Assembly: GCF_001742225.1 (NCBI RefSeq)
Contig: NZ_CP017076.1
Coordinates: 248,001 to 312,000, forward strand
Direction of reading: 5' to 3'
Length of the DNA: 64,000 nt
Source of the DNA: Novosphingobium resinovorum
Lineage (GTDB): Bacteria; Pseudomonadota; Alphaproteobacteria; Sphingomonadales; Sphingomonadaceae
The notes beneath the pieces are model-generated. The model was not told the DNA's origin and searched no databases. It saw only the letters and a program-made list of their open reading frames with translations. The translations under genes were made by a program, and so were the position numbers. Positions 6,442 to 24,863 of the stretch are shown here, one piece after another (within the stretch, counting starts at the first letter, position 1; each line of letters opens with the position of its first letter).

Positions 6442-6661
6442 TGTCCGGTTCCCCTTTCTTGTTGCGACGCCAATCGTCTCTCCCGTGCCTGGCGCCGGGC
6501 ACCGGATATTCCGTCGATGGCACTGCGTTCATGCCAGCTCAAGCGGAAAGTGAATTCTGAATTGGCGTGAATGAGAATTTAGTTTATGACTGAATTATCG
6601 AGATCGAGTGGCGCCCCGTAAGCGACCCTGCCGGGGGTGGCGTGAGGGTGCAGGAGGTATA

Positions 6662-8992: not shown

Positions 8993-9022
8993 CGCTGGAG
9001 GCGCCTCAGCGCCGCTCCAGCG
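8993..9022. terminator. Hairpin between converging GMC and MFS genes
   Basis: CGCTGGAG-GCGC, then loop CTCA, then GCGC-CG-CTCCAGCG forms an imperfect stem that overlaps the last codons of the leftward MFS gene. It could stop transcription from both sides. There is no T run. Confidence 0.4.
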
Positions 9023-10347: not shown

Positions 10348-11493
10348 TCAGGCCGCCGCCTGGATCGCCGCCAGCTTGAGCTGCACCAGCATCGACAACT
10401 CGTCGTAGACCACCCATTCGTCGACGATCTTGCCGTCCTTCACGTGGAAGTGGGTCACGCCCATCACGAACAGGTGATGCCCCGTCGGCGCGCCGAGAGA
10501 GCCGTAGCCGAGGTGGTGGCCGTCCATCACCCAGCGTACCGCGTACTTGGTGCCGCCTTCCTCGCTGTCGACCGAGGCGATGTGCTGCGGCACGAACGAG
10601 CAGTCGGGCAGCAGCGCGACGAGGCGCATGGTCTGGTGCAGCACCGATGCCACGCCGTAGAGTTCGCGCATCAGCGGCCCGTGCCACTGGCAGTTGGGCG
10701 CGTAGATCTCGTGGATCTTGCCGAACATGCGCTTGTTGTAGATGTGGTGCAGCCATTCGAGCAGCTGCTCCTCGCCCGCATTGTGCGCGATCGACAGGTC
10801 GGCCTCGCTCTCGGGCGGGTACTGGCCGAGCAGGCGGCGGTTCTCGGTGAGGTCGAGCACGGTTTCGCCGAGATCGAACTTCTTCTGCGCGATCCCTTGC
10901 GCAAAGACGTGCGGATCGAGGCCGACCTGGATCAGCGGACCCATGTTGTCGCGCACGATCCACTCCTTGTAGATCTTGTTCTCCAGGATCATGCAGTCGG
11001 CGACGGTGCGGGTACAGTAGGTGCGGCCCGTCGGCTTGCCCCAGGAACCCGGCTCGGTGTGACGGCCCAGCCCATGCGTCATGTGGCTGGTGTAGAAGCC
11101 GTTCACATCGTCCCCGTTCCAGATCACCTGCTGCGCCATGCCGCGCCGGTCTGGGAATTCGACGAGGCGCTGGATGGTGTCGCGGATGTGCGTCTCGCGG
11201 TCGTACATCGTGCCCATCGTGGTGTAGGCGACGCAGTTATGCGTGTAGTGCGAATAGATCAGGCCGACGTCGCGCTCGTCCCAGATGCGGTGGGTGCAGC
11301 GGATGATGTAGTCGACGATGTCGGTGTAGCATTCGTCGAAACCGCGCATCGACTGCACGCGCTTGCGCCCCTCGGGCACAAGCTGGGTAAAGTCGCGCCG
11401 CTCGACCTGCAGGACGCGGCCCGTCTCGCCGTCGCTGGGAGCAATGTCGGTGCGCGGTGTTGCGGGCTTCTTGGGGGCTTGGGTATCAGTCAC
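10348..11493 (-). CDS. Tandem SnoaL/NTF2-like protein
   Basis: A 381-residue protein with two SnoaL-like alpha+beta folds. One spans about residues 45-185 (FDECYTDIVDYIIRCTHRIW... and a Tyr/His-rich pocket). The other spans about 215-360 (LEWLHHIYNKRMFGKIHEIYAP... DGHHLGYGSLG). Usual SnoaL proteins have one domain of about 130 residues, so this is a duplicated form. The GTG start is chosen because GGAGG precedes it by four bases; the frame stays open 93 bases further without support. It lies 29 bases after the alpha/beta hydrolase in one operon. Members act as cyclases, hydratases or isomerases on small hydrophobic substrates; no reaction can be assigned. Confidence 0.78.
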   Translation of the reverse strand: MTDTQAPKKPATPRTDIAPSDGETGRVLQVERRDFTQLVPEGRKRVQSMRGFDECYTDIVDYIIRCTHRIWDERDVGLIYSHYTHNCVAYTTMGTMYDRETHIRDTIQRLVEFPDRRGMAQQVIWNGDDVNGFYTSHMTHGLGRHTEPGSWGKPTGRTYCTRTVADCMILENKIYKEWIVRDNMGPLIQVGLDPHVFAQGIAQKKFDLGETVLDLTENRRLLGQYPPESEADLSIAHNAGEEQLLEWLHHIYNKRMFGKIHEIYAPNCQWHGPLMRELYGVASVLHQTMRLVALLPDCSFVPQHIASVDSEEGGTKYAVRWVMDGHHLGYGSLGAPTGHHLFVMGVTHFHVKDGKIVDEWVVYDELSMLVQLKLAAIQAAA

Positions 11494-11522
11494 GTGACCT
11501 CCGTGGGATGATCTTGATGATG

Positions 11523-12254
11523 CTATGCGAGCGTCCGCACGTGCGCCAGCCAGTCGGCCAGCGTGCGGGCGCACAAATCGGGACATTCGAGCGGCAGGAA
11601 ATGCCCTGCATCCGGCGCGATCACGAGTTCGGCATCGGGCAGGCCCGCCGCCAGTTCGCGCTGCAGTTCGGGCGGAGCGATGCGATCCTCGGCCCCGCCC
11701 AGCACCAGTGCGGGCATGCGCATGATGGGCAGCAGCGGCCGCTTGTCGGAACGGGTGAGGGCAACTTCGGTCTGCAGCGCCAGCGTGCAGGGCGGCTGGC
11801 TTTGCGCCATCGCCACGATCGTCGCCTTCAGCGCGCTGTCATGGCGCGCCCCGGCCGCGACCGAGCGCTCCCACAGCACTTCGCCGACCAGCACTCCCGG
11901 ATCGGTCGTGGCGGCGGCGCGGCGGTCGGCGTGATCTGCCTCCGGTACGTCGCGCCCGTTGGCGGCGATCAGCGCCATGGCGGTGATCCGCTCGGGCGCG
12001 AGGGCCGCCATCTCCAGCGCCACGATCGCCCCCAGCGAGAAGCCGACCGGAATGAAGCGCCCGGAAACCTGCGAAAGCGCCCGTTCGGCCAGCCCCCGCG
12101 CCGATGCCACGCCGGTCATGTCGTAATGGACCACCGGTCGCCCGGCCAGCGCCGCATGCCGCAGCATCGGCGCGAACACCCGCGCGTCGCACAGCGTTCC
12201 CGCAAGCAGGACGAGCGGCAGGCCGTCGGCATCGTTTCGTCCAGTGGCGGACAT
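11523..12254 (-). CDS. Alpha/beta hydrolase
   Basis: A 243-residue alpha/beta-hydrolase fold protein. The nucleophile elbow is GFSLGA, with the acid in the LVLGGAEDRIAP region and the histidine in APDAGHFLPLE, so the Ser-Asp-His triad is complete. Likely an esterase or C-C/lactone hydrolase. The ATG at MSATGRND was chosen over a TTG two codons upstream. It leads the operon with the SnoaL-like gene and diverges from the bicupin across the region that carries the 12361 operator, so it may share LacI control. Confidence 0.82.
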   Translation of the reverse strand: MSATGRNDADGLPLVLLAGTLCDARVFAPMLRHAALAGRPVVHYDMTGVASARGLAERALSQVSGRFIPVGFSLGAIVALEMAALAPERITAMALIAANGRDVPEADHADRRAAATTDPGVLVGEVLWERSVAAGARHDSALKATIVAMAQSQPPCTLALQTEVALTRSDKRPLLPIMRMPALVLGGAEDRIAPPELQRELAAGLPDAELVIAPDAGHFLPLECPDLCARTLADWLAHVRTLA

Positions 12255-12360
12255 GGTCAAGCTCAGCTCCCCGTGGGACCGTCTATCTGGTCCTCTCGAT
12301 CAATTTTCGTGCCGCAGGCGCGTCATGGCTTGCGCTGGCGGTGTCCATGACGTACCACGA

Positions 12361-12376
12361 TTGAATTCGAATGCAA
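12361..12376. promoter_or_regulatory. LacI-type operator copy 1 (bicupin/hydrolase intergenic)
   Basis: TTGAATTCGAATGCAA, a near-palindrome centred on the CG step of TTCGAA. It lies 71 bases upstream of the bicupin start and 107 upstream of the divergent hydrolase start. The reverse complement occurs letter-for-letter at 16046-16061, with close variants at 17353 and 22122. Central CpG symmetry is the hallmark of LacI-family sites. Confidence 0.7.
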
Positions 12377-12446
12377 GCGTGATTCATGAAATCCGAAAAG
12401 GTAGAGGAAAGCGCTCCGCATCGAAGACCCTATTGAGGAGTATGAC

Positions 12447-13481
12447 GTGACCGAGTGGACTCGCGAAGCGATGGCCCAGCGCCTCGTGCGCTACGCAGAC
12501 CTCGTGCCTTGCCGCACCGCCTTCATCGATACCCGCACGCCGGGTTCGACCGAGAAGGAGAACTTCACGATCATCGGCGCGGGCGTGTCCGAAAGCGCCG
12601 ACCAGTTCGTCCACATCACCGAGCCGCACGGCTTCAACGTCGGCGCTGCCCGCCAGCCAGAAGGCTGCGTCAACTCGCAGCACAGCCACGAGACGGCGGA
12701 AGTCTTCGTCGTCCACTCCGGCCACTGGCGCCTGATCTTCGGCCCCAACCGCGAGGACGGCACGCTCGACATCGCGCCGGGCGACGTCTGCTCGGTCCCT
12801 ACCCGCATGTTCCGCGGCTTCGAAAAGCTGGACGAGGGCGTCGGCTTCCTGTGGGTGGTGCTCGGCCAGGACGATCCCGGCAAAGTCACCTGGGCGCCCG
12901 CTGTGTTCGAATCCGCCGCCGACTTCGGCCTCAAGCTGACCAAGGGCGGCACCCTGATCGACACCAGCGACGGCGACTACACCTTGCGTGAGGCCGAACT
13001 GGAAGCCCCGCTGAGCGAGGACGACCTTGCACAACTTCGCACGCCCCCGCTCGAAAAGCTGGCCGAATGCATGGTGCGCTTCGCGGACGTCGCCGCCAAC
13101 CCGGCCTCGCCGCTGGCCGCACCCGGCGTCGAGGAAGCCGGGCTGATCGTCCCGGAGGCGACCGCAGACGGCTTCGCCCCCGGCCCGATCAGCGGTTGGT
13201 GGCCGCACGGCTTCAACTTGCGCCTGCTGACGCTCCAGACCGGCGCCTACGTGCCGCGCCACAGCCGCCGCGAAGTGGAAGTGATCTTCGTCCACTCCGG
13301 CACGCTGGAAGTGAGCTGGGACCACGGCGAGATCCTGATGGGCGCGGGCGACACCCTGACCGTGCCGGTAGGCCTGCCCCACGCCCTGCGCAACACCGCC
13401 TCGGTCCCTTGCGTGGCCTACGTGGTGCGCGGCGGCGAGGACGTCGCGCGGCCGCTGTTCGAGTCTGGCGCCGCAGCCTGA
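12447..13481 (+). CDS. Bicupin domain protein
   Basis: A 344-residue protein with two cupin barrels. In the first, the metal-site pattern NSQHSHETAEVFVVHSG (about residues 73-90) is followed by a distal motif around APGDVCSVP. In the second, VPRHSRREVEVIFVHSG (about 268-284) is followed by MGAGDTLTVPVGLPHALRN. Such bicupins are often dioxygenases or small-molecule-binding isomerases. The GTG start has GAGGAG six bases upstream. It is monocistronic, with an operator upstream and a hairpin downstream. The substrate is unknown; shared control links it to the HisD/TonB/aldolase genes. Confidence 0.8.
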   Translation: MTEWTREAMAQRLVRYADLVPCRTAFIDTRTPGSTEKENFTIIGAGVSESADQFVHITEPHGFNVGAARQPEGCVNSQHSHETAEVFVVHSGHWRLIFGPNREDGTLDIAPGDVCSVPTRMFRGFEKLDEGVGFLWVVLGQDDPGKVTWAPAVFESAADFGLKLTKGGTLIDTSDGDYTLREAELEAPLSEDDLAQLRTPPLEKLAECMVRFADVAANPASPLAAPGVEEAGLIVPEATADGFAPGPISGWWPHGFNLRLLTLQTGAYVPRHSRREVEVIFVHSGTLEVSWDHGEILMGAGDTLTVPVGLPHALRNTASVPCVAYVVRGGEDVARPLFESGAAA

Positions 13482-13539
13482 TTTTCAGGGAACACCCGCG
13501 TCGCCCGGTACATCTGCATGGGTCGGGCGATGTCTTCTG

Positions 13540-13573
13540 GCCTGCCCGGCGTCCCCATCCGCGCCGGGCAGGC
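13540..13573. terminator. Intrinsic terminator after the bicupin gene
   Basis: A 12-bp perfect stem GCCTGCCCGGCG / CGCCGGGCAGGC with a 10-base loop, followed by TCCTTGTT. It lies 58 bases past the bicupin stop. Confidence 0.7.
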
Positions 13574-13671
13574 TCCTTGTTGCCCTGCACAGGGCGGCTT
13601 CGGCCAGCGACGATCGCCCTTTCCGGAACTGGAGGGTGGTTTGCGGACAGAGACCTGCTAGGCATGCCGCG

Positions 13672-13986
13672 ATGAGCAACAAGCTAGCCGGCTGCGTCGA
13701 GGTCGATGGACTTCAGTATGAATGGGAACTCCGCAGCGAGCCGCAGTGGGGCGATGCCGATGGCTGGCGGGGGATGACCGTTGCCCTGCTGCGCAGGCAC
13801 ACCAAGCGCGGCGCCCTGCTGGAATTCCCGGCGCCCAAACGGCTGCTCAAGGGCATGCAACGAGGGCGCCTTCAGATCGGCGATGCGATCGTGGTGCGGG
13901 GTGTACGGGCCGCATTGCTGGCGGGATGGGACCCCGATTCCCGCGGCAAACCCATGGTGTTCACCGTCGATGCGGAAGGCAACTAG
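13672..13986 (+). CDS. Small conserved hypothetical protein
   Basis: A 104-residue soluble protein, MSNKLAGCVEVDGLQYEWEL..., rich in beta-strand pattern with two basic patches (RRHTKRG and KRLLKGMQRGRLQ). I do not recognise the family and see no membrane segment or signal. It has a plausible ATG and good sphingomonad codon use. It is followed about 100 bases later by another small gene in the same direction. The function is not assigned. Confidence 0.55.
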   Translation: MSNKLAGCVEVDGLQYEWELRSEPQWGDADGWRGMTVALLRRHTKRGALLEFPAPKRLLKGMQRGRLQIGDAIVVRGVRAALLAGWDPDSRGKPMVFTVDAEGN

Positions 13987-14091
13987 GCCGCGATTTCCCG
14001 CAGATCGCTCGAAGTCTGCAGGCTTCGCACCCGTGTTGCCTCGTTCGCAAGATCGGGTATGGCGGCATCGGCAAACCAGCAGGCGGATACA

Positions 14092-14346
14092 ATGGCAGCA
14101 CCTTCGATCGACGAGCAACGCGAACACTTCGCCTATTGCGTCCAGCTTTTTGGCGGCACCACGGCGTTCTCGCGCCGCATGGGCATAGACGAGCGGGCGA
14201 TCCGCCGTTTCATCAACGCCGAGCGTCCCCTCGGCGCCGGGCTTCTGGCGGATACCGCGAAGGCCTTGCGCAAGCTCGCGGCCGAAGCGGCCGCTGCCGG
14301 ACAGGAAATCGAAGCAGCGCTGGCTGCGGGGCCGGACGTTTCGTAA
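14092..14346 (+). CDS. Small helix-turn-helix-like protein
   Basis: An 84-residue protein whose segment AFSRRMGIDERAIRRFINAERPLGAGLLADTAKAL has the length and polarity of a Cro/XRE-type helix-turn-helix; that family call is tentative. The ATG was chosen because AGGCGGA lies eight bases upstream; another ATG 33 bases earlier is possible. It lies just upstream of the array of AAGGTGACACCTT palindromes (14463-14623), so it is an attractive but untested candidate binder of that array. Phage- or plasmid-type origin is possible. Confidence 0.55.
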   Translation: MAAPSIDEQREHFAYCVQLFGGTTAFSRRMGIDERAIRRFINAERPLGAGLLADTAKALRKLAAEAAAAGQEIEAALAAGPDVS

Positions 14347-14462
14347 CGGGTTCGCGGCGCGCGAACCGGGCATTTTCCTACAGCCGGGTGGGTACGGTAT
14401 TCGTCATGAATGCCGTTTTCCACTTCGCCCGAGCTAGCATGCCGCCTTCCGACTAGACCTTG

Positions 14463-14623
14463 CAAGGTGACACCTTCGAGGCCGCAAGGTGACACTTCCA
14501 GCGTTCAAGGTGACACCTTTTCCACACAAGGTGACACATCTGGCGCACAAGGTGACAGCTTCCGCCGCAAGGTGACGCCTTTTCCTCCAGGACTGTGTAA
14601 ACCGTGTAAACCCTGTCACCTTG
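14463..14623. repeat. Array of 21-bp-period AAGGTGACACCTT palindromes
   Basis: Six direct copies of CAAGGTGACA start at 14463, 14485, 14506, 14527, 14548 and 14568, that is every 20-22 bp or two helical turns. A seventh, inverted copy TGTCACCTTG lies at 14614. Copies 1 and 3 extend to the 6+1+6 palindrome AAGGTGACACCTT. The spacer bases differ, so only the palindrome is conserved. A direct repeat GTGTAAACC (two copies, 14595-14612) precedes the inverted copy. The arrangement resembles an operator, iteron or partition site. This 343-base stretch (14347-14689) holds no credible gene. Confidence 0.8.
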
Positions 14624-14689
14624 CGCGGCCGGACACGCGAAGGGCGGCCCCGGTCACCCGGAGCCGCCCTCACATCGCGACGGTGGGTG

Positions 14690-15985
14690 TCAGGCGGGCT
14701 GCTTCAGCCGATCGAAGCGGATTGCGGCGGCCTTCTGGTGGCCTTCGAGGCCCTCGCTGCCGCTCTGGCGGATCGCCGGCGGGGCGACGGCGGCGACGGC
14801 CTTGTCCTCCAGCCACTGGTGCGTGGCGATCTTGACGTAGGAGCCGACCCACAGGCCGCCGGTGTAGCGCCCCGCGCCCATCGTCGGCAGGGTGTGGTTG
14901 GTGCCCACGTTCTTGTCAGAATAGACCACGCTGGCGTTCTCGCCGATGAACAGCGAGCCGTAGTTGCGCAGCTTCTTGGCGAAGCCGTGCGGGTCGGCAG
15001 TGTGGACCTGAAGGTGCTCGGCCGCCACGAAATCGGAATAGGCGATCATCGCCGCCTCGTCGGCGCAGAGCACGACTTCGCCGTAGTTCTCCCAGGATTC
15101 CGCCGCGACCTTGGCGGTGGCGAGGGTCTGGAGCTGGCGCTCCACCTCGCGCACGGTCGCCTCGGCCAGCGCGCGGTCGGTGGTGATGAGGCCGACGCGG
15201 GTGCGCACGTCGTGCTCGGCCTGGCCCAGCAGGTCGCAGGCGATCAGTTCGGGATCGCCCGAGGCATCGGCGACGACGAAGATCTCGGAAGGCCCTGCCA
15301 GCTGGTCGATGCCGACGGGGCCGAAGACCTGCCGCTTGGCCTCGTTCACGAAGGCGTTGCCGGGGCCCATGATCTTGTTGACCTGCGGCACGCTCTCGGT
15401 GCCGTAGGCCATCGCCGCGATCGCCTGCGCGCCGCCGATGCGGAAGATGCGGTCGGCGCCCGAAAGGTGGCAACCCGCGATCATCGCGCGGTGGGCATTG
15501 GGCGGCAGGCAGGCGACGACTTCGGCGCAGCCCGCGACCTTGCCCGGAACGATGGTCATGATCGGCGCGGAAAGCAGCGGGAAGCGGCCGCCGGGCACAT
15601 AGGCGCCGACCCGGTCGATCGGGATCACCCGATGGCCGAGGTGCAGGCCGGGGATCGGCTCGATCTCCAGCGGCAGGATCGTGCCCAGCTGCGCCTCGGC
15701 GAAGCGGCGCACGTTGTCGATCGCGAATTCGGTGTCGGCGCGGGTCTGCGGGTCGAGTTCGTCGAGTGCGGCCTGACGCTCGGCAGGGCTGACCTCGAAG
15801 CGGTCAAGTTCGGCCTTGTCGAATTGCGCGGAGTAGCGGCGCACGGCGGCATCGCCTTCGGCGCGGACGTCGGCGAGGACGCGGGCGACCAGGCCGGCGA
15901 CGTCACCACTGTCGGTGATCTGGTCGCGCGCGGGCGCCTTGATGTAAGTTGTGGTCTCGGAAAATCCGTGCGGCGCATCGGTCAT
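14690..15985 (-). CDS. Histidinol dehydrogenase-family zinc dehydrogenase (HisD paralogue 1)
   Basis: A 431-residue NAD-dependent alcohol-to-acid dehydrogenase of the HisD fold. By comparison with E. coli HisD, the zinc ligands Gln255, His258, Asp357 and His416 and the catalytic pair Glu323-His324 are all present. NAD-binding glycines lie in PGGRFPLL and GPGNAFV. No other his gene is near. It faces a LacI regulator across a palindromic operator and sits beside a TonB receptor. This context argues for a catabolic paralogue, such as the sulfopropanediol dehydrogenase HpsN type, rather than histidine biosynthesis. The substrate should be a vicinal or amino alcohol; that part is inference. Confidence 0.83.
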   Translation of the reverse strand: MTDAPHGFSETTTYIKAPARDQITDSGDVAGLVARVLADVRAEGDAAVRRYSAQFDKAELDRFEVSPAERQAALDELDPQTRADTEFAIDNVRRFAEAQLGTILPLEIEPIPGLHLGHRVIPIDRVGAYVPGGRFPLLSAPIMTIVPGKVAGCAEVVACLPPNAHRAMIAGCHLSGADRIFRIGGAQAIAAMAYGTESVPQVNKIMGPGNAFVNEAKRQVFGPVGIDQLAGPSEIFVVADASGDPELIACDLLGQAEHDVRTRVGLITTDRALAEATVREVERQLQTLATAKVAAESWENYGEVVLCADEAAMIAYSDFVAAEHLQVHTADPHGFAKKLRNYGSLFIGENASVVYSDKNVGTNHTLPTMGAGRYTGGLWVGSYVKIATHQWLEDKAVAAVAPPAIRQSGSEGLEGHQKAAAIRFDRLKQPA

Positions 15986-16045
15986 GGAAGGGCTCCCGTT
16001 GGACTGGTCTGGATGGGTCGGTCTGGGCGACGGGATGCAGTTTTA

Positions 16046-16061
16046 TTGCATTCGAATTCAA
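16046..16061. promoter_or_regulatory. LacI-type operator copy 2 (HisD1/LacI1 intergenic)
   Basis: TTGCATTCGAATTCAA is the exact reverse complement of the site at 12361. It lies 61 bases upstream of the HisD1 start and about 98 upstream of the divergent LacI1 start, so it can control both. Confidence 0.72.
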
Positions 16062-16158
16062 ATGTCACGTAGCAAAACGAGTGGCGCTGTTGCGTTGCAT
16101 TTGCGGTGCCGCCTTTACGTCGCTAGACCGTGGTTTCGCGCCAAGTTACGGACGTTCC

Positions 16159-17205
16159 ATGCCAAAGCCTCGATCGACCAAGAAGCTCAAGTCCACCGGA
16201 ATGGAAGACGGTCGCCGTCCCACGTCTTACGACGTGGCGCGCATCGCGGGGGTTTCGCAGTCAGCCGTATCGCGCTGCTTCGCCCCTAACGCGTCGATCG
16301 CGCCTGCCAAGCGCGAACTGATTCTCAAGGTCGCGGCGGAAATCGGGTACAAGCCCAATGCGCTGGCACAGGCTCTGATCTCGAAGCGGACCAACATCGT
16401 GGCGGTCATCATCGCTGCGCGCACGAACCTCTATTATCCCGAAGTCCTGGCCGAAGTGGGCGCGCGGCTGAGCGAGAAGGACTTTCGCGTGCTGCTCTTC
16501 GCATTGTCGCAGGAGAGCGAGGTCGATGGCGTGCTGGACCAGATCTGGCGACATTCGGTCGATGGCGTGATCTCGGCGGCGCGCCTGTCCACGGCGCAAG
16601 TCGCGCAGTTCGCCGAGCATCGCGTGCCGGTCGTCCTCTATAATCGCGTTGCCAGCGGTGCCGCCTCGGTACGGTGCGATTCGGGGGAGGGGGAGCGCGA
16701 TCTGGTCGGGCGCCTGCTCGCGGCGGGGCATCGGCGCTTCGGCCTGATCTCCGGCCCGCTGGACAACTACGTCGGCGAGGAGCGCCGCAGCGCCGCGCTG
16801 ATGGCGCTGTCTATGGCCGGGATCACCGAGGTGCCCGAAGTCCGCGGCGACTTCACGTACGAGAGCGGCCATGCGGCGATGGCAGAACTTCACGCCAGAG
16901 GGTGCGAGGCGATCATCGCCGTCAACGACATGATGGCTATCGGCGCAATGGACGCGGCGCGAATCGATCTGGGTCTGTCGGTGCCGCAGGACTTGTCCAT
17001 CGTAGGCTTCGATGGTTCGGGTGCATCGAGACTCGGTGCATACGACCTCACTACGGTCCGTCAGCCCGTGCGCCGGATGACCGAGGCGGCCATCGAGCTT
17101 CTAATAAAGCGTATCGAAGATGCCTCCGCTCCGCCTGAACAGCGATTGTTCAGCGGTCAGATGGAGGCGGGAAGCAGTGCGCGAATTGCCGTAGAAGGCT
17201 ATTGA
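16159..17205 (+). CDS. LacI family transcriptional regulator 1
   Basis: A 348-residue regulator. The N-terminal helix-turn-helix (TSYDVARIAGVSQSAVSR, residues 22-39) and the hinge helix (KPNALAQALISKRTN) are canonical, followed by the periplasmic-binding-protein-like effector domain. The ATG at MPKPRSTKK gives a slightly long basic N-terminus; a second ATG at 16201 gives the standard LacI length. It diverges from HisD1 over an operator, and its recognition segment SQSAVSR is identical to that of LacI2. It probably represses HisD1, the TonB receptor and the distant bicupin and aldolase genes until a sugar-like ligand binds. Confidence 0.9.
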   Translation: MPKPRSTKKLKSTGMEDGRRPTSYDVARIAGVSQSAVSRCFAPNASIAPAKRELILKVAAEIGYKPNALAQALISKRTNIVAVIIAARTNLYYPEVLAEVGARLSEKDFRVLLFALSQESEVDGVLDQIWRHSVDGVISAARLSTAQVAQFAEHRVPVVLYNRVASGAASVRCDSGEGERDLVGRLLAAGHRRFGLISGPLDNYVGEERRSAALMALSMAGITEVPEVRGDFTYESGHAAMAELHARGCEAIIAVNDMMAIGAMDAARIDLGLSVPQDLSIVGFDGSGASRLGAYDLTTVRQPVRRMTEAAIELLIKRIEDASAPPEQRLFSGQMEAGSSARIAVEGY

Positions 17206-17352
17206 ATTATCATTCATTACGGAAGTGATATATTTTGATATTTCGATTGATGTACCGATAATACCTCAAGTTTTTATAAAACATCGTCAAATATCGCATC
17301 TTGTCTTACTTAAGGTAAATGGTTCTCAAGTATATACCCGCTCGATCACGAA

Positions 17353-17368
17353 ATGACTTCGAATGCAA
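17353..17368. promoter_or_regulatory. LacI-type operator copy 3 (upstream of TonB receptor)
   Basis: ATGACTTCGAATGCAA matches the 12361 site at 14 of 16 positions, keeping the TTCGAATGCAA half intact. It lies 62 bases upstream of the receptor ATG in an AT-rich leader (17206-17430), at the same distance as at HisD1. Confidence 0.62.
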
Positions 17369-17430
17369 AAATTCATGGACAGAGGGGCGGGTCGCAGATA
17401 CCTTTCCTGGAGTTCGAGGGCATTTGAGGG

Positions 17431-19746
17431 ATGAATATGCACACTCGTTTGATCCAGGGAGTTTCGTTGGCGGCGCTGGTTTTCGCGGCGGCGCCCGTCA
17501 TGGCGCAGGACGCCAAAACCACCACTACCGTGCCTGCGGCGGATGAATCCGCGAATTCGGCGGGCGATATCGTCGTTACCGCGCAGCGGCGCAGCGAGCG
17601 TCTGCTCGACGTTCCGGTTGCCGTCACCGCGCTCTCGGGGGATGCCCTGCAGCGGCTAGGCGCGCAGAACGTGTCCAAGGTGGAACTGGCGACGCCGGGC
17701 TTCACCTGGGGGTCGCAAGGGTCGGACTCGTTCCCGGCGATCCGCGGCGTGCGCACCAGCCTCGTCAGCGCGCAGACCGACCCGGTCATCGGGTTCTACC
17801 TCGACGGCGTCTACCAGAGCCGCACCCAGCAGCAGAGCATTCCGCTGTTCGACATCGCCCGTGTCGAGGTCCTGCGCGGCCCGCAAGGCACGCTTTACGG
17901 ACGCAACACCTTCGGCGGCAACATCAGCGTCGTGACGTCCGATCCGACTGACGAATTCGCGGCCGGGGTCAACCTCGACAGGGGCAACTTCGATTCCGCC
18001 CGCATCGACGGCTTCGTCAACATTCCCGTCAGCGACACCCTTCAGGTGCGCGTGGCCGGGGTGTTCCAGCGCCATGACGGCTACGTCAAGTCGACGACCC
18101 CGGGCATCGTGCTCAACGACCTGAACGAGAACGCGCAGCGGGTCTCGCTCAAGTGGAAGCCCGACGACCGCCTCGAGGTGACCATCCATGCCGGGACCTG
18201 GCGCCGCGACGATGCAGGCGCGGGCTCCTACGGCTACAAGACCGCCGGTACGCTCATCAACACGTCCACCGGCTACCAGTCGATCAATGGATCGGGCGTG
18301 GCGGTGAACCCCTCCGTCCCCAATGGCAGCCCGAACCTGGCGGGCCGTGACGTGGGCACCCCTGTGACCGGCGGCGCCTGGACCAACGACTGGGATTACC
18401 AGCCGTTCGAGCATGTCGCCGAAGACTACGTTTCGGGCAAGATCGCCTATGACCTCGGCTTTGCCACGGTCAGTTCGATCACCGGCTACACGCACTTCAC
18501 CGCTCACCGCAGCGCCGACAATGACCAGTCCAGCAAGGTCTTCGAAGCCTATGGCTACGGCTCGGGCATCCAGGAGCCGAAGACCCGCTCGAAGGCGTTC
18601 TCGCAGGAAGTGCAGCTTGCCTCGAACAGCCGCACGCCGCTGGAATGGATCGTCGGGGCCTACTACCTCAAGGACGACATCTTCGAGACGTACCAGCAGA
18701 AGGTCACCGCGCCCGGCGCTACGACCAACGGCTTCCGTGCGGACTCCGACATCGGCGTCGAGGCGCTCGCCTTCTATGGCCAGGCCAGCTACGCGATCGT
18801 GCCTGACAAGCTGAAGCTGATCGGCGGCATCCGCTATTCGCACGAGAAGAAGAGCTTCGTCTTCTCCGACTTCGCCGACGCGCCGCCGAACACCTACGAT
18901 TTCACGACGCCTTATGTCGTCACCAGCGGCTCGCCCAGCTTCAACAGCTGGACCTGGCGCGCGGGCCTGCAGTACACCGTCGATCGCAACACGATGATCT
19001 ACGCGACGGCATCGACCGGCTTCGCATCGGGCGGCGTCAACGACAGCGGCGGCAATCCGCTGATCCCGCAATCCTACGCGCCGCAGAAGGTGGACGCCTA
19101 CGAAGCGGGCTTCAAGAGCCGCATCCTGGGCGGACTGGGCCAGTTCGAGGCCTCGGTGTTCTACAACAAGTTCAGTAACCTGCAGATCAACATCTACACG
19201 CCGCTGGTCTCGTACTTCGGCTCTGCCGGCAAGGCGCGCAGCTATGGTGCCGAGATGGCGCTGCGGCTGAATCCGGTACAGGCGCTGCACATCGATGCCA
19301 CGGCGGCGCTGATGAATGCCGAGTACACCAGCTACATTAGCGGCAACAACTTCTACGGACTTTCCGATGGCACCGATCCGGTGTCGCTCAACCTGAAGGG
19401 CAACCGCATTCCGCAGTCGCCCAAGCTGAAGACGACGCTGGCGGTATCCTACGACATCGATCTGGGCACGGCGGGCATGTTGTCGCCGATGGGGTCGTGG
19501 CTGCATTCAAGCAGCTACTACACCACCGACCGCAACACCGTGCTGGACCGTCAGGGCAGCTACGACAAGTTCGACGCCTCGCTGCGCTGGAGCAGCCCGG
19601 ACGATCGCACCTACGTCGAAGCCTATGGCGACAACCTGAGCAACCAGGCGGTGCTGCTGAGCGGCGTGATCGGTCGCCGCCAGCGCATCCAGGTGTCCTA
19701 CGCGGCACCGCGCACGTACGGCATCCGCGTCGGCACCAAGTTCTGA
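17431..19746 (+). CDS. TonB-dependent outer-membrane receptor
   Basis: A 771-residue protein. A signal peptide (cleavage near VMAQDA, residue 25) is followed by a linker and the plug domain beginning DIVVTAQRRSERLLDVPVAV. The 22-strand barrel ends in the aromatic-terminated strand YGIRVGTKF. Plug landmarks RVEVLRGPQGTLYGRNTFGG and the NPLIPQSYAPQKVDAYEAGFKS barrel motif are typical of sphingomonad catabolic receptors. It imports a bulky or scarce substrate using TonB energy. The ATG follows TGAGGG. The nearby HisD, LacI and operator genes point to a regulated catabolic substrate rather than siderophore uptake. Terminated at 19797. Confidence 0.92.
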   Translation: MNMHTRLIQGVSLAALVFAAAPVMAQDAKTTTTVPAADESANSAGDIVVTAQRRSERLLDVPVAVTALSGDALQRLGAQNVSKVELATPGFTWGSQGSDSFPAIRGVRTSLVSAQTDPVIGFYLDGVYQSRTQQQSIPLFDIARVEVLRGPQGTLYGRNTFGGNISVVTSDPTDEFAAGVNLDRGNFDSARIDGFVNIPVSDTLQVRVAGVFQRHDGYVKSTTPGIVLNDLNENAQRVSLKWKPDDRLEVTIHAGTWRRDDAGAGSYGYKTAGTLINTSTGYQSINGSGVAVNPSVPNGSPNLAGRDVGTPVTGGAWTNDWDYQPFEHVAEDYVSGKIAYDLGFATVSSITGYTHFTAHRSADNDQSSKVFEAYGYGSGIQEPKTRSKAFSQEVQLASNSRTPLEWIVGAYYLKDDIFETYQQKVTAPGATTNGFRADSDIGVEALAFYGQASYAIVPDKLKLIGGIRYSHEKKSFVFSDFADAPPNTYDFTTPYVVTSGSPSFNSWTWRAGLQYTVDRNTMIYATASTGFASGGVNDSGGNPLIPQSYAPQKVDAYEAGFKSRILGGLGQFEASVFYNKFSNLQINIYTPLVSYFGSAGKARSYGAEMALRLNPVQALHIDATAALMNAEYTSYISGNNFYGLSDGTDPVSLNLKGNRIPQSPKLKTTLAVSYDIDLGTAGMLSPMGSWLHSSSYYTTDRNTVLDRQGSYDKFDASLRWSSPDDRTYVEAYGDNLSNQAVLLSGVIGRRQRIQVSYAAPRTYGIRVGTKF

Positions 19747-19796
19747 CGATGGCAGGGAAGGGGGAGGCGGGAGCCTTCCCTTTCACGGCGTGAAGA

Positions 19797-19836
19797 GGCG
19801 GCGCTTTCCCGGCGGGGAAGGCGCCGTCTTCCTTGT
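19797..19836 (+). terminator. Intrinsic terminator of the TonB receptor gene
   Basis: GGCGGCGCTTTCCC-ggc-GGGGAAGGCGCCGTC forms a strong stem about 50 bases after the stop and is followed by the T-rich TTCCTTGTTT. Confidence 0.7.
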
Positions 19837-19871
19837 TTGCCGGGTTGCGAATGCCCTGCCTGCTCACCGTT

Positions 19872-19948
19872 CGTCATTGCGAGCGCAGCGAAGCAATCCA
19901 GGGCGGCTCAAGACTGCTCTGGATTGCTTCGCTGCGCTCGCAATGACG
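19872..19948. repeat. Long perfect inverted repeat, extragenic palindrome family A
   Basis: Two 30-bp arms (19872-19901 and 19919-19948) beginning CGTCATTGCGAGCGCAGC are exact reverse complements around a 17-base loop. Shorter relatives occur at 25655 and 27612. It lies between the converging TonB receptor and amidase genes and can act as a bidirectional terminator. It belongs to a widespread type of alphaproteobacterial extragenic palindrome. Confidence 0.85.
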
Positions 19949-20002
19949 AGGGGCGGGGCGAGGGGTAGGGCGAACCTCGATCGGCGACCAAAGCGCGTTC
20001 GG

Positions 20003-21361
20003 TCAAGCCTGCTCGATCATGCGGGCGAGATCGAACAGCAGCTGTTCGCGGCCCGTCGGAGCCAGCAGTTCCACACCGACAGGGCAGGTCTGCGCGCCCG
20101 CCGGAACGCTGATCGCGGGCCAGCCGGTGCGAGGCGCCAGTTCGGGAGCCCAGCCGACCTTGGGATTGCCCAGACCCTCGGGAATGACGCGCAGGGTCGG
20201 GTGGAACAGCCCGTCGAGGCGGTGCTCCGCCATGGCCCGCAGCAGGGTGTCGGTCAGGCGGCGATGAGCGGCAAGGACAGCCTGCGCCTCTTCCGCGCTG
20301 CGCGACAGGCGATCGAGGATCACCGGGCGGTATTCCGGAAGGAATCGGCCGCCTTCGAGCAAGGCGGCGAGGCTTTGCGGTGCGGTCCCGGCCACGAAAT
20401 TGCGGGCAAGATACGCGTCGAACGCGGCCGCGAATTCGACGTCGACGATATGCGGACCGGCCAGCATTTGCGCGATATCGGGGATCGCGAAAGGATCGAC
20501 GAGTTCGGCCCCGCCGTCCGCCAGTTTTCGCAAGGCGCGTTCGCAGGCGGCGATCACCCTCGGGTCGGTGCCGAAGGCGGCGCGCAGCACGCCGATGCGC
20601 GGCGGCGCCCCGGTTTCTCCCGCAGGGATCTTGCCGCCCATCGCGAGATAGAGCCCGCGGGCATCCTCGACCGTGCGGGCGATCGGGCCGATGGTGTCGG
20701 TGGATGGGGCCAGCGGCGCGACGCCGTCCAGCGGCAGCATGCCATGCGCGGGACGCAGTCCGACAAGGCCATTGCAGGCCGCCGGAATGCGGATCGAGCC
20801 GCCGGTATCGGTGCCGATCGCGGCGCTCGCGAAGCCGCGCGCGACTGCGACCGCCGATCCGCCGCTCGATCCGCCCGCCGTCGTGGCCGGGGCAAAGGGG
20901 CTGAGGACGTCGCCGCCGAGCGAACTGCGCGATCGCACTTCGAAGGAGAACTCGGACAAGTTGGTCTTGCCGACGATGACGGCCCCGCCATCGACAAGCC
21001 GGTCGATCACCGTGGCATTGGCGAGCGGCATCGCGGCTTCGAGCGCGAGGCATCCCGAACTGGTCGCCATCCCTGCGATGTCGATGTTGTCCTTGATCGC
21101 CAGCACCATGCCGTGGAGCGGCCCCACCGGCATCCTTCGGCGCATGGCCGCGTCCGCGTCGCGCGCCGCCATGCGGGCGTGCGGGTTCAGCGCCAGCATC
21201 GCATTCCAGCGATGATCCTCGGCGCCGATGCGGTCGAGGCAGGCGTCCAGCCTTGCCTCCACGTTGCCTGTCGCGGGATCAGGGCCTGTCGCGAGATCAG
21301 ACGGCAACGGACCGGCGCGCCCTGTCGAGAAGGTCTGCGGCGCCCTGCAAAAGGAAGCCAT
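20003..21361 (-). CDS. Amidase (amidase-signature family)
   Basis: An enzyme of up to 452 residues that hydrolyses amide bonds with a Ser-cisSer-Lys triad. Numbered from the longest start, Lys90 lies in VLAIKDNIDI, the cis-serine in TAGGSSGGSA (165/166), and the nucleophile Ser189 in GTDTGGSIR. It overlaps the upstream aldolase gene by 65 bases if started at 21361. A GTG at 21262 (419 residues) would remove the overlap and is quite possible. It is the second gene of the operon behind the 22122 operator, so amide cleavage is likely a step of the same pathway. The substrate is unknown. Confidence 0.85.
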   Translation of the reverse strand: MASFCRAPQTFSTGRAGPLPSDLATGPDPATGNVEARLDACLDRIGAEDHRWNAMLALNPHARMAARDADAAMRRRMPVGPLHGMVLAIKDNIDIAGMATSSGCLALEAAMPLANATVIDRLVDGGAVIVGKTNLSEFSFEVRSRSSLGGDVLSPFAPATTAGGSSGGSAVAVARGFASAAIGTDTGGSIRIPAACNGLVGLRPAHGMLPLDGVAPLAPSTDTIGPIARTVEDARGLYLAMGGKIPAGETGAPPRIGVLRAAFGTDPRVIAACERALRKLADGGAELVDPFAIPDIAQMLAGPHIVDVEFAAAFDAYLARNFVAGTAPQSLAALLEGGRFLPEYRPVILDRLSRSAEEAQAVLAAHRRLTDTLLRAMAEHRLDGLFHPTLRVIPEGLGNPKVGWAPELAPRTGWPAISVPAGAQTCPVGVELLAPTGREQLLFDLARMIEQA

Positions 21362-22118
21362 GGTCGGAGCCGAGCAGGAACAGGCTGGCGCCGCGTTCGT
21401 GCCAGTGGGTCACGTCCTCGATCCGGCTGAGGAACATGCCGACCGCCCGGCCATTCCTGCGCCCCGCGTCGCAGATGCGCTCGACGGCGGCGACGACGCG
21501 TTCATGGTCCTGGCTGGCAAGGCCGTAGCCCACCGTCAGGTCCACGCGGCCGACGAACAGGCAGTCGATGCCGTCGACGCGGGCGATCTCGTCGATGTCC
21601 TCGACCGCTTCGGGGTCTTCGATCTGGGCGATGGCCACGGTTTCGCGCTCGCTCAGGCGCAAGTGGTCGGCCATTGGGCGCGTCGTGTAGCAGGCCGCGC
21701 GGGTGGAGCCGGCATAGCCGCGCCCTCCGGCGCCGAAGCGGCAGGCGCGGGCGAAGGCGGCGGCTTCTGCGGCATTGCGGATATGCGGCGCGACGACACC
21801 GGTGGCGCCGCAATCCAGCGCATTGAGCACTTGCTCCGGCGTCGCTACCGGAATCCGCACGAGGCTGGGCATGCCGATGGCGCGGGTCATGGCTACGCAG
21901 CCGTCGATGGTCGCGCGGTCGAACGGCGCATGCTCGGCATCGAGGCAGAGGCAGTCGAGGCCGGTGAGCGACAGCACTTCGGCGACGATCGGCGAGGGTG
22001 TCTTGACGAACGTGCCGACCAGCAGTTCGCCCGAGGTCAGCCGTTCACGGAACGCGGGCGTGTTCAAGACAGAGCCCGGTGGCATTCGCGGTGCGGCGTT
22101 GCAGTTCCCATGGATCAT
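21297..22118 (-). CDS. HpcH/HpaI-family aldolase
   Basis: A 273-residue class II pyruvate-type aldolase. Family marks are GTFVKTPSPIVAEVL at the N-terminus, LDAEHAPFD, the GRGYAGSTRAA loop, and the metal-binding region AQIEDPEAVEDID with CLFVGRVDLT. It would split a hydroxy-acid into pyruvate (or a 2-oxo acid) and an aldehyde. It is the first gene of an operon with the amidase. Its ATG at 22118 sits four bases from a perfect 22-bp palindrome, so repressor binding would block initiation. Another in-frame ATG (MPPGSVL) lies 33 bases downstream. Confidence 0.86.
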   Translation of the reverse strand: MIHGNCNAAPRMPPGSVLNTPAFRERLTSGELLVGTFVKTPSPIVAEVLSLTGLDCLCLDAEHAPFDRATIDGCVAMTRAIGMPSLVRIPVATPEQVLNALDCGATGVVAPHIRNAAEAAAFARACRFGAGGRGYAGSTRAACYTTRPMADHLRLSERETVAIAQIEDPEAVEDIDEIARVDGIDCLFVGRVDLTVGYGLASQDHERVVAAVERICDAGRRNGRAVGMFLSRIEDVTHWHERGASLFLLGSDHGFLLQGAADLLDRARRSVAV

Positions 22119-22121
22119 TCT

Positions 22122-22143
22122 CCGATGAATTCGAATTCATCGG
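22122..22143. promoter_or_regulatory. LacI-type operator copy 4 (upstream of aldolase/amidase)
   Basis: CCGATGAATTCGAATTCATCGG is a perfect 22-bp palindrome. Its central 16 bases match the 12361 site at 13 of 16 positions and represent the idealised symmetric form. It lies immediately upstream of the aldolase ATG. Confidence 0.78.
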
Positions 22144-22195
22144 TAAGCCCGAGGGCTTGCCCGGTCAATGGATTTGCTGCCAATCAGATTTGCGG

Positions 22196-23209
22196 TCAGG
22201 CGCCGACCGGGCGGGTGCTGCCGCGCACGACGAGGGAGCCTTGCGCGACGACCTGCTCGTGCCGGTCGGCATCGGTGCGCAGGGACAGGATCAGGCGCAG
22301 GGTCTCCGCCACCATGAAGGCCGCGGGCTGCGAATAGCTGGTGAGCGAGAAGCCGGGCCATGCCGCCATCGGCACGTCGTCGTACCCGGCGATCGAAATC
22401 TCGCGGCCCACGTCCAGCCCGAATTCGTGGCGGGCGACGGTGATCGCGGCCAGCGCCATGGTGTCGTTGGCGCAGAAGATCGCCTCGGGCCGGTCCTTGC
22501 GCAGCAGCAGGCGGCGGGTGGCGGCCATCGCGGTATCGAAATCGAAGGCGCCATCCTCGCGGATCGGGGCCGGTGCGCCCCGCTCGGCAAGGTATTCGGT
22601 GAATCCCGCCTCGCGCTGGGCGTTGGTGGAGGAATCCGCGGTGCCCGCCATGAAGGCGAAGCGGCGGTGACGCCCGGCCAGCAGGTGCGCCGCGATCGCC
22701 CTCGCGCCTGTCTCGTTGTCGCCCACCACGCAGGAGGCATCCTGCGCGGGGGTGGTGCGGTTGTAATGGATCACCGGCACCTGCGCGCGGCGGCACTGCT
22801 CGGTCAGGGTGGAGGAGGGGCTGACGGACAGCAGCACCAGCGCGTCGATCCGGTAATGCAGGATTTCGTGGATGGAGGGCTCGGGCCGGGTACTGCCTTG
22901 CGCCGGGAACAGCATCAGGCGCAGCCCGGCGCCGTCCAGCGCGTCGGACAGCAGTTGCAGGGTCTGGGTGAAGAACGGATTGGTGAGGTAGCCCACGCCG
23001 ACGCCGACGATGTTAGAGCGCCCGCGAAGTAGCGAGCGGGCCAGCGGATTGGGCCGGTAACCCAATTCCTCGGCGGCGGCGATGATCCGCTCGCGCTTGT
23101 CCGCGGCGATGCTCGCGCCCGGCGTGAAGGCGCGCGACACCGCCGATTGCGACACGCCGGCCCTGCGCGCGACGTCCAGGGACGTGATCGCCTCTTTCTC
23201 GATTTCCAT
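22196..23209 (-). CDS. LacI family transcriptional regulator 2
   Basis: A 337-residue regulator. The helix-turn-helix TSLDVARRAGVSQSAVSR (residues 9-26) and hinge RPNPLARSLLRGRSN are followed by a sugar-binding-protein-like effector domain. The ATG at MEIEKEAIT was chosen because AGGAAA precedes it and it gives the classical LacI N-terminus. Its recognition segment SQSAVSR equals that of LacI1. It sits between the aldolase/amidase operon (same strand, downstream) and the divergent HisD2/SDR operon, so it probably controls both. A weak TTCGAA-centred site lies near 23317-23330. Confidence 0.9.
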   Translation of the reverse strand: MEIEKEAITSLDVARRAGVSQSAVSRAFTPGASIAADKRERIIAAAEELGYRPNPLARSLLRGRSNIVGVGVGYLTNPFFTQTLQLLSDALDGAGLRLMLFPAQGSTRPEPSIHEILHYRIDALVLLSVSPSSTLTEQCRRAQVPVIHYNRTTPAQDASCVVGDNETGARAIAAHLLAGRHRRFAFMAGTADSSTNAQREAGFTEYLAERGAPAPIREDGAFDFDTAMAATRRLLLRKDRPEAIFCANDTMALAAITVARHEFGLDVGREISIAGYDDVPMAAWPGFSLTSYSQPAAFMVAETLRLILSLRTDADRHEQVVAQGSLVVRGSTRPVGA

Positions 23210-23438
23210 GCCGTTTCCTATCGAGTGGTCATGGGGGAGGTCAACGGCGTTACGCGGGGGGTGGAGTACGTTCAGTGAATGCATGATCATAGGTTAATGC
23301 GGCGATATAATGGCCATATGTTCGAATATTTTGCATATTGTGCATATATAGATGAATATGTATTCAAACACCAATCGGTGTCCGATTCCCAGGCGCCGCA
23401 GAGCAAGCGGGCAGACCGCCCGGGCAGGAGCAGGACGA

Positions 23439-24770
23439 ATGGCGATCTATCTCAAGCGCGGCGCGACCGCAGAGGCGAAGGCGGATGCGGACCGCAAGGT
23501 GCGTGACATCGTCGAGGCAGCGCTGGCCGATATCGAGGCGCGCGGCGACGTCGCCGTGCGCGAGATGAGCAACCGGTTCGACAACTGGGACCGCGAGGAC
23601 TACCGACTCTCGCAGGCCGAGATCGACGCCTGCGTGGAATCGCTTTCGGCGCAGGAGCGCAAGGACATCGAATTCGCGCAGGCGCAGGTGCGCAATTTCG
23701 CGCAGATCCAGCGCGACAGCATGAAGGACGTCGAGGTCGAGACGCTGCCCGGCGTCGTGCTCGGCCACAAGAACCTGCCGCTGAACTCGGCGGGCTGCTA
23801 CGTGCCGGGCGGCAAGTATCCGCTGCTGGCCAGCGCGCACATGTCGGTCATCACCGCGAAAGTCGCGGGCGTTAAGCGGGTCATCACCTGTGCGCCCCCG
23901 TTCCAGGGCAAGCCCGCGCGCGCGATCGTCGCGGCGCAGGCGATGGCGGGTGCCGATGCGATCTATGCGCTGGGCGGCATCCAGGCGGTGGGCGCGATGG
24001 CTCTGGGCACCGAGACGATCGACCCGGTCGATATCCTCGTCGGCCCCGGCAACGCCTTCGTGGCCGAAGCCAAGCGCCAGCTCTACGGCCGCGTCGGCAT
24101 CGACTTGTTCGCAGGACCGACCGAAACGCTGATCATCGCCGACGAGATCGGCTGCGACCCCGAGATGGCCGCCACAGACATCCTCGGGCAAGTCGAGCAC
24201 GGCCCGGACAGCCCCGGCGTCCTGCTCACCAATTCGGAGAAGTTCGCGCGCGAGACGATGGCCGAGATCGAGCGCCTGCTGCAGATACTGCCCACGGCCG
24301 ACCATGCCCGCAAGGCGTGGGAGACCTTCGGCGAGGTGATCGTGGCGGACAGCTACGAGGAAATGGTCCGCGTTGCCGACGAGATCGCCTCCGAACACGT
24401 GCAGGTGATGACCGCCGACCCGGACTATTTCCTGCAGCACATGACCAATTATGGCGCGCTGTTCCTGGGCAATCGCACCAATGTCAGCTTCGGCGACAAG
24501 GTGATCGGCACCAACCACACGCTGCCCACCAGAAAGGCGGCGCGCTACACCGGCGGGCTCTGGGTCGGCAAGTTCATCAAGACCTGCACCTACCAGCGCG
24601 TCCTCACTGACGAGGCCTCGGCGCTGATCGGCGAATACTGCAGCCGCCTCTGCGCGCTGGAAGGCTTCGCCGGGCATGGCGAGCAGGCGAACATCCGCGT
24701 GCGCCGCTTCGGCGGGCGTGACGTGCCTTATGCCGGGCAGGCGGAGCCGACCCCGGCGACGGCGGCCTGA
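23439..24770 (+). CDS. Histidinol dehydrogenase-family zinc dehydrogenase (HisD paralogue 2)
   Basis: A 443-residue HisD-fold NAD-dependent dehydrogenase. Zinc ligands Gln251, His254, Asp353 and His413 and the catalytic Glu319-His320 pair are conserved. The sequence is clearly different from paralogue 1, so this is not a recent duplication. The N-terminus [20 protein letters not shown] resembles sulfopropanediol dehydrogenase (HpsN)-type proteins rather than biosynthetic HisD. The ATG follows GCAGGAGCAGGA. It pairs with an SDR gene 93 bases downstream and diverges from LacI2. It likely oxidises a polyol-like intermediate twice to an acid; the substrate is not known. Confidence 0.84.
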
Positions 24771-24863
24771 TCGGTCATGAACGGGGTGGACAGGGCGGCA
24801 GGGGCCGTCTCTGTTGGCCCCGTTCGCCGATGCGGCGATTTGGAAAGACATGAGGACGATGCG

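Follow-up and report, generated by a model that had tools for sequence, protein, structure and literature searches.

Sister LacI-family regulators with the same recognition helix appear to use operators with different centres at a predicted catabolic cluster of Novosphingobium resinovorum

Introduction

Local regulators of the LacI family are mostly repressors. In their main text, on regulons reconstructed by comparative genomics, Ravcheev et al. (2014; PMC4052901) report autoregulation for 72% of local LacI regulons, operators that typically have a central CG (some even palindromes have a different central pair), and more than 75% of sites at 140 to 30 bp upstream. Francke et al. (2008; PMC2329647) describe an arginine of the recognition helix that pairs with the G at operator position -6, and a central CG that goes with a leucine of the hinge. 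Here we analyze a stretch of 64,000 nucleotides from Novosphingobium resinovorum (GCF_001742225.1, contig NZ_CP017076.1, positions 248,001 to 312,000 of the forward strand). We call this whole stretch the window, and coordinates without a prefix are positions within it. Between 12 and 25 kb, the window contains a cluster of putative catabolic genes, two genes for LacI-family regulators (lacI1 and lacI2), and four copies of a palindromic site. The original prediction, made from the letters of the DNA, was that these genes form one catabolic system and that the two regulators compete for the same four sites. We argue that LacI1 probably controls the cluster by way of the four sites, and that LacI2, a sister protein that reads another operator centre, probably controls its own lacI2-hisD2 unit.

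Control of the cluster would be a local LacI regulon, which is a kind of system already known. As in the regulons described in the main text of Ravcheev et al. (2014; PMC4052901), we see an even palindrome with a central CG, a local set of target genes, apparent autoregulation, and similar positions of the sites upstream of genes. In contrast, this operator with this set of genes is not among the regulons of that main text, in which the terms "histidinol" and "sphingomonad" occur 0 times. As in Francke et al. (2008; PMC2329647), there is a G at position -6, and this holds for both classes of operator that we describe. Unlike here, the sections of that paper that we draw on give no correspondence between the equivalent of Tyr7 and the neighbour of the central CG. 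Our literature searches (for the gene set, the motif and LacI operators, in titles and the starts of abstracts) found no account of the operator or the cluster; RegPrecise and the supplements of PMC4052901 were outside these searches.

Results

The four LacI1-type operators

The predicted LacI1-type operators are at 12361-12376 (between the divergent genes for a hydrolase and a bicupin), at 16046-16061 (in the divergent region between hisD1 and lacI1), at 17353-17368 (upstream of the gene for a TonB-dependent receptor) and at 22125-22140 (upstream of the aldolase gene), the last being contained in a perfect 22-bp palindrome at 22122-22143. The repeats are as originally claimed: the copies at 12361 and 16046 are exact reverse complements, the copy at 17353 is identical at 14 of 16 positions, and the copy at 22125-22140 at 13 of 16. 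All four are intergenic, and all four have a central CG. If up to three mismatches are allowed, then the window contains seven strand-matches, all at these four places. Shuffled windows (n = 100) had 0.24 matches on average, and none reached seven.

The genome has 6.9 Mb in five contigs, and the window belongs to contig C2. We searched this genome by pattern rather than by matrix. The pattern WTGMMTTCGAAKKCAW matches exactly at the four window sites only, and with one mismatch it matches four further places. (At three mismatches it is uninformative, with 779 matches per strand versus 160 for the control.) The pattern TTGMATTCGAATKCAA, with up to two mismatches, finds the four sites and C2:1530007, and the reversed-pattern control finds 0. 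A genome-wide scan had been put forward as the check on the original prediction; run in this way, it indicates that the motif is confined to the cluster. Within the window, a matrix built from the four sites gives scores of 25-29 for the sites themselves. The next-best matches are TTGAATTATCATTCAT at 17202 (17.8) and ATGAATATGTATTCAA at 23352 (16.8), and the rest score 13.2 or less.

The sites had been placed 4 to 71 bases before start codons. This needs correcting: we measured 70 bases for the bicupin, 60 for hisD1, 97 for lacI1, 62 for the TonB-dependent receptor and 6 for the aldolase. The true start of the aldolase is probably the codon at 22067, because an annotated orthologue has 249 amino acids and homology begins at residue 22-23; the distance from the site would then be 57 bases. 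The list of controlled genes also needs an addition. Since the site at 12361 lies between the bicupin gene and a divergent set (hydrolase, SnoaL-like protein and major facilitator superfamily (MFS) transporter), which begins 100 bases from the site, the list was one divergent set short. A promoter scan found nothing useful.

The match at 17202-17217 is a weak pair of half-sites, TTGAAT-TATC-ATTCAT, which overlaps the stop codon of lacI1 and lies about 150 bases from the operator of the receptor gene. A related sequence, GTGAATTCGAAGGCAA, is found just 3' of lacI1 in a relative (genome G030, L081:12771). We consider the pair to be a possible, unproven auxiliary operator. We also considered that it might be a LacI2-type site, but its centre, TATC, suits neither class of operator.

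Conservation of the LacI1 locus

We fetched 20 stretches from related genomes. Among these, seven genomes, all from the same genus, carry the LacI1 cluster (G030, G045, G026, G027, G015, G081 and G088). Since three of them (G015, G027 and G081) have near-identical LacI1 proteins, they amount to about five independent clusters. (The LacI1 match in G088 had one in-frame TGA in one search and none in another.) A TCGA-type site, with TCGA or, on one strand, CCGA at its centre, is present upstream of lacI1 and of the TonB-dependent receptor in 7/7 clusters, upstream of the bicupin in all six clusters with a complete bicupin start, and upstream of hisD2 in all six clusters with hisD2 there. In G030, there is a TCGA-type site upstream of the aldolase instead (L081:17525), and that fetched stretch has no lacI2. 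The consensus of the LacI1-type sites is TTGCAT-TCGA-ATGCAA. Relatives with the cluster include Novosphingobium rosa NBRC 15208, Novosphingobium sp. FSW06-99, MD-1 and EMRT-2, and a Sphingomonas metagenome-assembled genome (L101).

For a wider view, we searched 84,980 species genomes and kept the best 80 of 581 confirmed relatives of LacI1. (That these 80 have the helix in common is partly due to selection, since the helix sequence AGVSQSAVS served as one of two patterns in the search.) Around these 80 genes, 194 sites scored above 15, versus 2 with the reversed matrix; some of the sites from which the matrix was built belong to the same group, and the genomes of three loci were already among those of the fetched stretches. 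Together with the conservation of the sites in place in seven orthologous clusters, this supports the claim that the four sites are one local operator set of a catabolic cluster. The 80 loci contain relatives of SnoaL (63), the aldolase (62), the hydrolase (58), the bicupin (56), the TonB-dependent receptor (56), hisD2 (54), the MFS transporter (28), hisD1 (14), the amidase (13) and a short-chain dehydrogenase/reductase (SDR) (10), as counted with tblastn at E = 1e-8; short loci are among the 80, and weak matches to the TonB-dependent receptor may be other receptors. In six loci (L168, L169, L175, L176, L179 and L180) we saw the LacI alone. Because gammaproteobacterial and burkholderial genomes are among the records as well as Sphingomonadales, the operator and the pathway would be old and widespread. 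Judging from these homologues, the LacI1 locus is a recurring one in Alpha- and Gammaproteobacteria.

LacI2 and its own unit

For LacI1 (348 amino acids; 16159-17205, plus strand) and LacI2 (22196-23209, minus strand, with its start codon at 23209), we checked the start codons. Both match PF00356 and PF13377 above cut-off, that is, they have a helix-turn-helix and a periplasmic-binding-protein-like domain. The recognition helix does read VSQSAVSR in both proteins, as had been noted. The genome contains 14 LacI-family matches, and we read the helix of every one; these are the only two with this helix.

A site that the original prediction did not contain lies at 23352-23367, between lacI2 and hisD2: ATGAAT-ATGT-ATTCAA (ATGAATATGTATTCAA), which we propose as a LacI2-type operator. 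(The open reading frame (ORF) of hisD2, as found mechanically, begins inside this site; we revised the starts to 16159 for lacI1, 23209 for lacI2 and 23439 for hisD2.) The LacI2-type pattern WTGMATAYGTATKCAW matches exactly once in the genome, at 23352. In two relatives, lacI2-hisD2 is found apart from the LacI1 cluster: G035 has lacI2-hisD2 and no LacI1 cluster, with no LacI1 orthologue in the genome at E = 1e-40, and in G030 the unit is on contig C16 and the cluster on C64. The sequence TATGTATTCAW is kept in the gap between lacI2 and hisD2 in all three genomes (window, ATGAATATGTATTCAA; G035, GTGCATATGTATTCAA; G030, ATGATTATGTATTCAT). A second site, closer to lacI2, has the centre AGGT in G035 and GCAT in G030. 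No TCGA site with up to one outer mismatch is present in the LacI2 stretches of G030 and G035; locus L082 has one poor TCGA-centred match, TTGAGATCGAACGCAA at 11837, with three outer mismatches. Among 20 more distant homologues of LacI2, 15 loci have a centre of the ACGT, ACGC or ACGA type, four have no site, and one has another centre. So LacI1 and LacI2 are associated with different operator classes, with TCGA-type and ACGT-type centres.

These results bear on the idea of two proteins, with different inducers, competing for one set of four operators. The two helices are identical, the outer half-sites are shared, and lacI2 adjoins the site at 22125. In addition, WTGMATAYGTATKCAW with two mismatches has 9 forward and 11 reverse matches in the genome (control, 3 and 2), and three of the LacI1 sites are among them, which is a point against a clean separation of the two regulators as well. 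But in the seven same-genus clusters these sites are present, and LacI1 is the one LacI homologue of the fetched stretch, and the lacI2-hisD2 loci that are separate from LacI1 (in G030 and G035) lack these sites and have other centres. We therefore consider competition for the four sites to be unlikely, and we do not retain that part of the original prediction. Because the outer half-sites are nearly shared and WTGMATAYGTATKCAW, at two mismatches, reaches all but one of the LacI1 sites, cross-binding may occur, above all at 22125.

We also considered that LacI2 might be decayed or accessory, with LacI1 alone controlling the region including hisD2 and the site at 23352 as a relic; the central CpG is lost from the LacI2-type sites in the window, G030 and G035 (ATGT, AGGT, ACAT and GCAT), and L101, where lacI1 was the only match seen, has two TCGA-type sites between the aldolase and hisD2, but this seems improbable given that lacI2 is open at full length in three genomes and adjoins hisD2 in each, that TATGTATTCAW is kept amid otherwise diverged DNA, and that G035 has lacI2-hisD2 without a LacI1 orthologue.

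Because lacI2 of the window sits where L101 has its two TCGA-type sites, the arrangement suggests that a lacI2-hisD2 unit replaced an older hisD2 end of the cluster. The window's hisD2 is 94% identical to the lacI2-linked hisD2 of G035, and groups with it in a hisD2 tree, with modest support (85 only).

Both kinds of regulator may occur together elsewhere. L174, from Comamonadaceae bacterium G21597-S1, has two LacI1-type matches and one LacI2-type match, hisD2, and several sites. We excluded it from the counts, and it would be a natural test case for insulation.

The operator centre and the equivalent of Tyr7

We compared centres with a centre-blind search (WTGMAT-N4-ATKCAW, one mismatch). In 118 loci, this found 277 sites versus 14 with the reversed pattern. 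Centres were counted at the 115 loci with one type of regulator. The 84 LacI1-only loci (15 of them without a site) have 220 sites, of which 178 are centred on TCGA (139), CCGA (26) or GCGA (13); the other centres are GCGC (5), CCGC (4), ACGC (1), ACGA (1) and a few others, with no ACGT. The 31 LacI2-only loci (8 without a site) have 44 sites, and 25 of these are centred on ACGT (15) or ACGC (10); there are also ACGA (5), ACAT (2), TCGA (1) and a few others. A central CG is present in 189/220 and 32/44 sites, respectively. (The proposed site at 23352 has a central TG.) At 27 loci whose LacI has another helix, we found five sites in total, so the outer half-site is tied to the helix. The identical helices are a fit to the shared outer half-sites, and not to the centre.

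One residue that goes with the centre lies outside the helix. In an alignment with CcpA, it corresponds to the tyrosine of "TIYDVA", which we take to be equivalent to Tyr7 of the Lac repressor; it is tyrosine in LacI1 and leucine in LacI2. To compare this residue with the base two from the centre (-2), we added 39 further loci of the window's class and excluded four multi-LacI loci (including the window) and 29 loci whose helix did not match the pattern. At loci with tyrosine, this base is T in 341/442 half-sites and A in 11; at loci without tyrosine, it is A in 85/142 and T in 20. By locus, T outnumbers A at 66 of the 84 tyrosine loci and A outnumbers T at none, while A outnumbers T at 29 of the 40 other loci and T outnumbers A at 2. 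As far as these loci go, the equivalent of Tyr7 and the base next to the central CpG vary together, with one lineage excepted: L133 and L136 have histidine and TCGA-type sites.

Individual loci add to this picture. L092 belongs to the LacI2 clade by its ligand domain and has tyrosine; its one site is the only TCGA among the LacI2-only loci, and neither of the two matches in its genome at E = 1e-40 is a LacI1 orthologue. A locus on a Roseibium plasmid, which we found later and did not use in deriving the rule, encodes a LacI that has VSQSAVSR, with valine at this position, alongside hisD1, an amidase and SnoaL. Its sites (ATGCAT-TCGT-ATGCAA, TTGCAT-AGGT-ATGCAG and ATGCAA-GCGT-ATGCAA) have A in four of six half-sites, T in one and G in one. 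(The Roseibium version of the locus adds a sugar-type ABC (ATP-binding cassette) transporter.) Among the 29 loci with unmatched helices, L208 reads VSQAAVSR and L226 reads VSQSAVSR; L226 has mostly A half-sites, and L208 has A and G equally.

We also noticed a distant LacI1-like gene with glutamine at this position (L296; G1054:C7). Its matched part is preceded, at about 50 bases, by the site TTGAAT-AATT-ATTCAA, again with A beside the centre and with no central CG.

Several observations weigh against a simple role for this residue. No site was found at 15 of the 84 tyrosine loci and 3 more are ties, and likewise 5 of the 40 other loci lack a site and 4 are ties. In a tree built from ligand domains alone (131 proteins, of which 99 have both traits), there are at least three changes of the residue and two changes of operator class. 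Of three independent pairs, two agree and one, the histidine of L133/L136, has no change of operator, and this number is too small for significance (sign test, p = 0.5). L092 contributes just one site, and the LacI1 and LacI2 clades are told apart by further residues as well. Finally, CcpA also has tyrosine at this position, and CcpA operators are not known to have a fixed base at the corresponding place, so the rule is not family-wide. Residues of the hinge were another candidate, but these fit less well because serine is seen at position 72 in either class and, at position 79, LacI2 of the window shares asparagine with LacI1.

Of the T-class sites, 83/188 are inside mechanical ORFs of at least 150 amino acids, as are 29/52 of the A-class sites; these ORFs cover 89% of bases, and the inside/outside count is rough because their starts are overextended.

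Genes and enzymes of the cluster

We assigned genes with Pfam and NCBIfam searches. The divergent set on the minus strand consists of an alpha/beta hydrolase (11523-12260; PF00561, 5.2e-15), a double SnoaL-like protein (10348-11586; PF07366 in two stretches, 3.6e-25; an orthologue is annotated as "ester cyclase") and an MFS transporter (9006-10268; MFS_1, 5.9e-39), which is presumably the last gene of the set and whose position is conserved in orthologous clusters. On the other side of the first operator is the bicupin (12447-13481, plus; PF07883 in two stretches). Next are hisD1 (14690-15985, minus; PF00815, 8.5e-134), which encodes a dehydrogenase with the HisD fold, and, beyond lacI1, the TonB-dependent receptor (17431-19746, plus; PF00593 and PF07715). 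The amidase (20003-21361, minus; PF01425, 4.7e-79) and the HpcH/HpaI-type aldolase (21297-22118, minus; PF03328, 3.2e-28) precede lacI2. The second HisD-fold dehydrogenase, hisD2 (23439-24770, plus; PF00815, 7.6e-134), is followed by an SDR dehydrogenase (24777-25628, plus; PF13561, 6.4e-55).

Both HisD proteins match TIGR00069 above cut-off, and in public records the key enzymes are labelled histidinol dehydrogenase, with a Gene Ontology term for histidine biosynthesis. However, the context of hisD1 and hisD2 is catabolic, and we saw no his genes adjoining them. The comparison with the PDB, which covers HisD1, gave an (R)-dihydroxypropanesulfonate (DHPS; sulfopropanediol) dehydrogenase as the best match (8wwe, 1.5e-100). 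The first two places go to DHPS dehydrogenases (340 and 296 bits), and a HisD comes shortly after (289 bits); because of this, the label of histidinol dehydrogenase is doubtful as a statement of function. The likeness to the DHPS pathway lies in these closest solved relatives of HisD1; to our knowledge, the genes around HisD1 here (SnoaL, bicupin, aldolase, hydrolase and amidase) are no part of DHPS pathways. The bicupin and SnoaL had only weak matches in the PDB, which indicate no substrate. It is plausible that the HisD enzymes oxidize an alcohol to an acid and that the aldolase releases pyruvate.

At one locus of the same kind, an RraA-like aldolase gene adjoins the SnoaL gene (L138:6651-7361), a hint that the pathway may finish with different pyruvate-forming aldolases.

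Two neighbouring sets of genes flank the cluster. At 5236-8982 are a nucleoside-H+ symporter-type permease, a protein similar to subunit 3 of gluconate 2-dehydrogenase, and a GMC (glucose-methanol-choline) oxidoreductase. We considered the GMC oxidoreductase and permease genes (5.2-9 kb) as members of the regulon, but the best score nearby is about 10 (at 6567), which is at background level. This looks like a separate, operator-free set for sugar oxidation. At 25826-27606 are an Ada-type methyltransferase/regulator and then a PF09859 protein ("oxygenase, catalysing oxidative methylation of damaged DNA").

Discussion

From the sites, their clustering and their conservation, all of which are features of the sequence, we infer that LacI1 is a local regulator that would bind the four palindromes (consensus TTGCAT-TCGA-ATGCAA) and jointly control lacI1, hisD1, the bicupin, hydrolase-SnoaL-MFS, the TonB-dependent receptor and aldolase-amidase. 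It is most likely a repressor that is released by a compound of the pathway; we propose an inducible, self-repressing repressor because this is usual for local LacI regulons. LacI2, its sister, would come from a separate unit, lacI2-hisD2, which is found elsewhere in relatives and here lies beside the cluster. It would read the same outer half-sites with the same recognition helix, would prefer an ACGT-like centre (here ATGT), and would control lacI2-hisD2. The two proteins would be insulated mainly by the 4-bp centre. We consider this division of labour, with LacI1 on the four sites and LacI2 on its own unit, to be likely.

The preference for the centre goes with the equivalent of Tyr7 (tyrosine in LacI1 and leucine in LacI2), and this co-variation is what points to a role for the residue. 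Our broader proposal is tentative: one residue outside the VSQSAVSR helix might set the base next to the central CpG and so insulate the sister regulators, and the LacI1 branch might govern an undescribed and widespread catabolic pathway of Alpha- and Gammaproteobacteria, with a HisD-type dehydrogenase, SnoaL, the bicupin, the hydrolase and a pyruvate-type aldolase.

If the two proteins do use different operators, then they are a concrete case in which two regulators have the same recognition helix and yet not the same operators. What separates the operators would come down to a centre of 4 bp and to one candidate residue, and the motif can be used to find members of a widespread catabolic locus.

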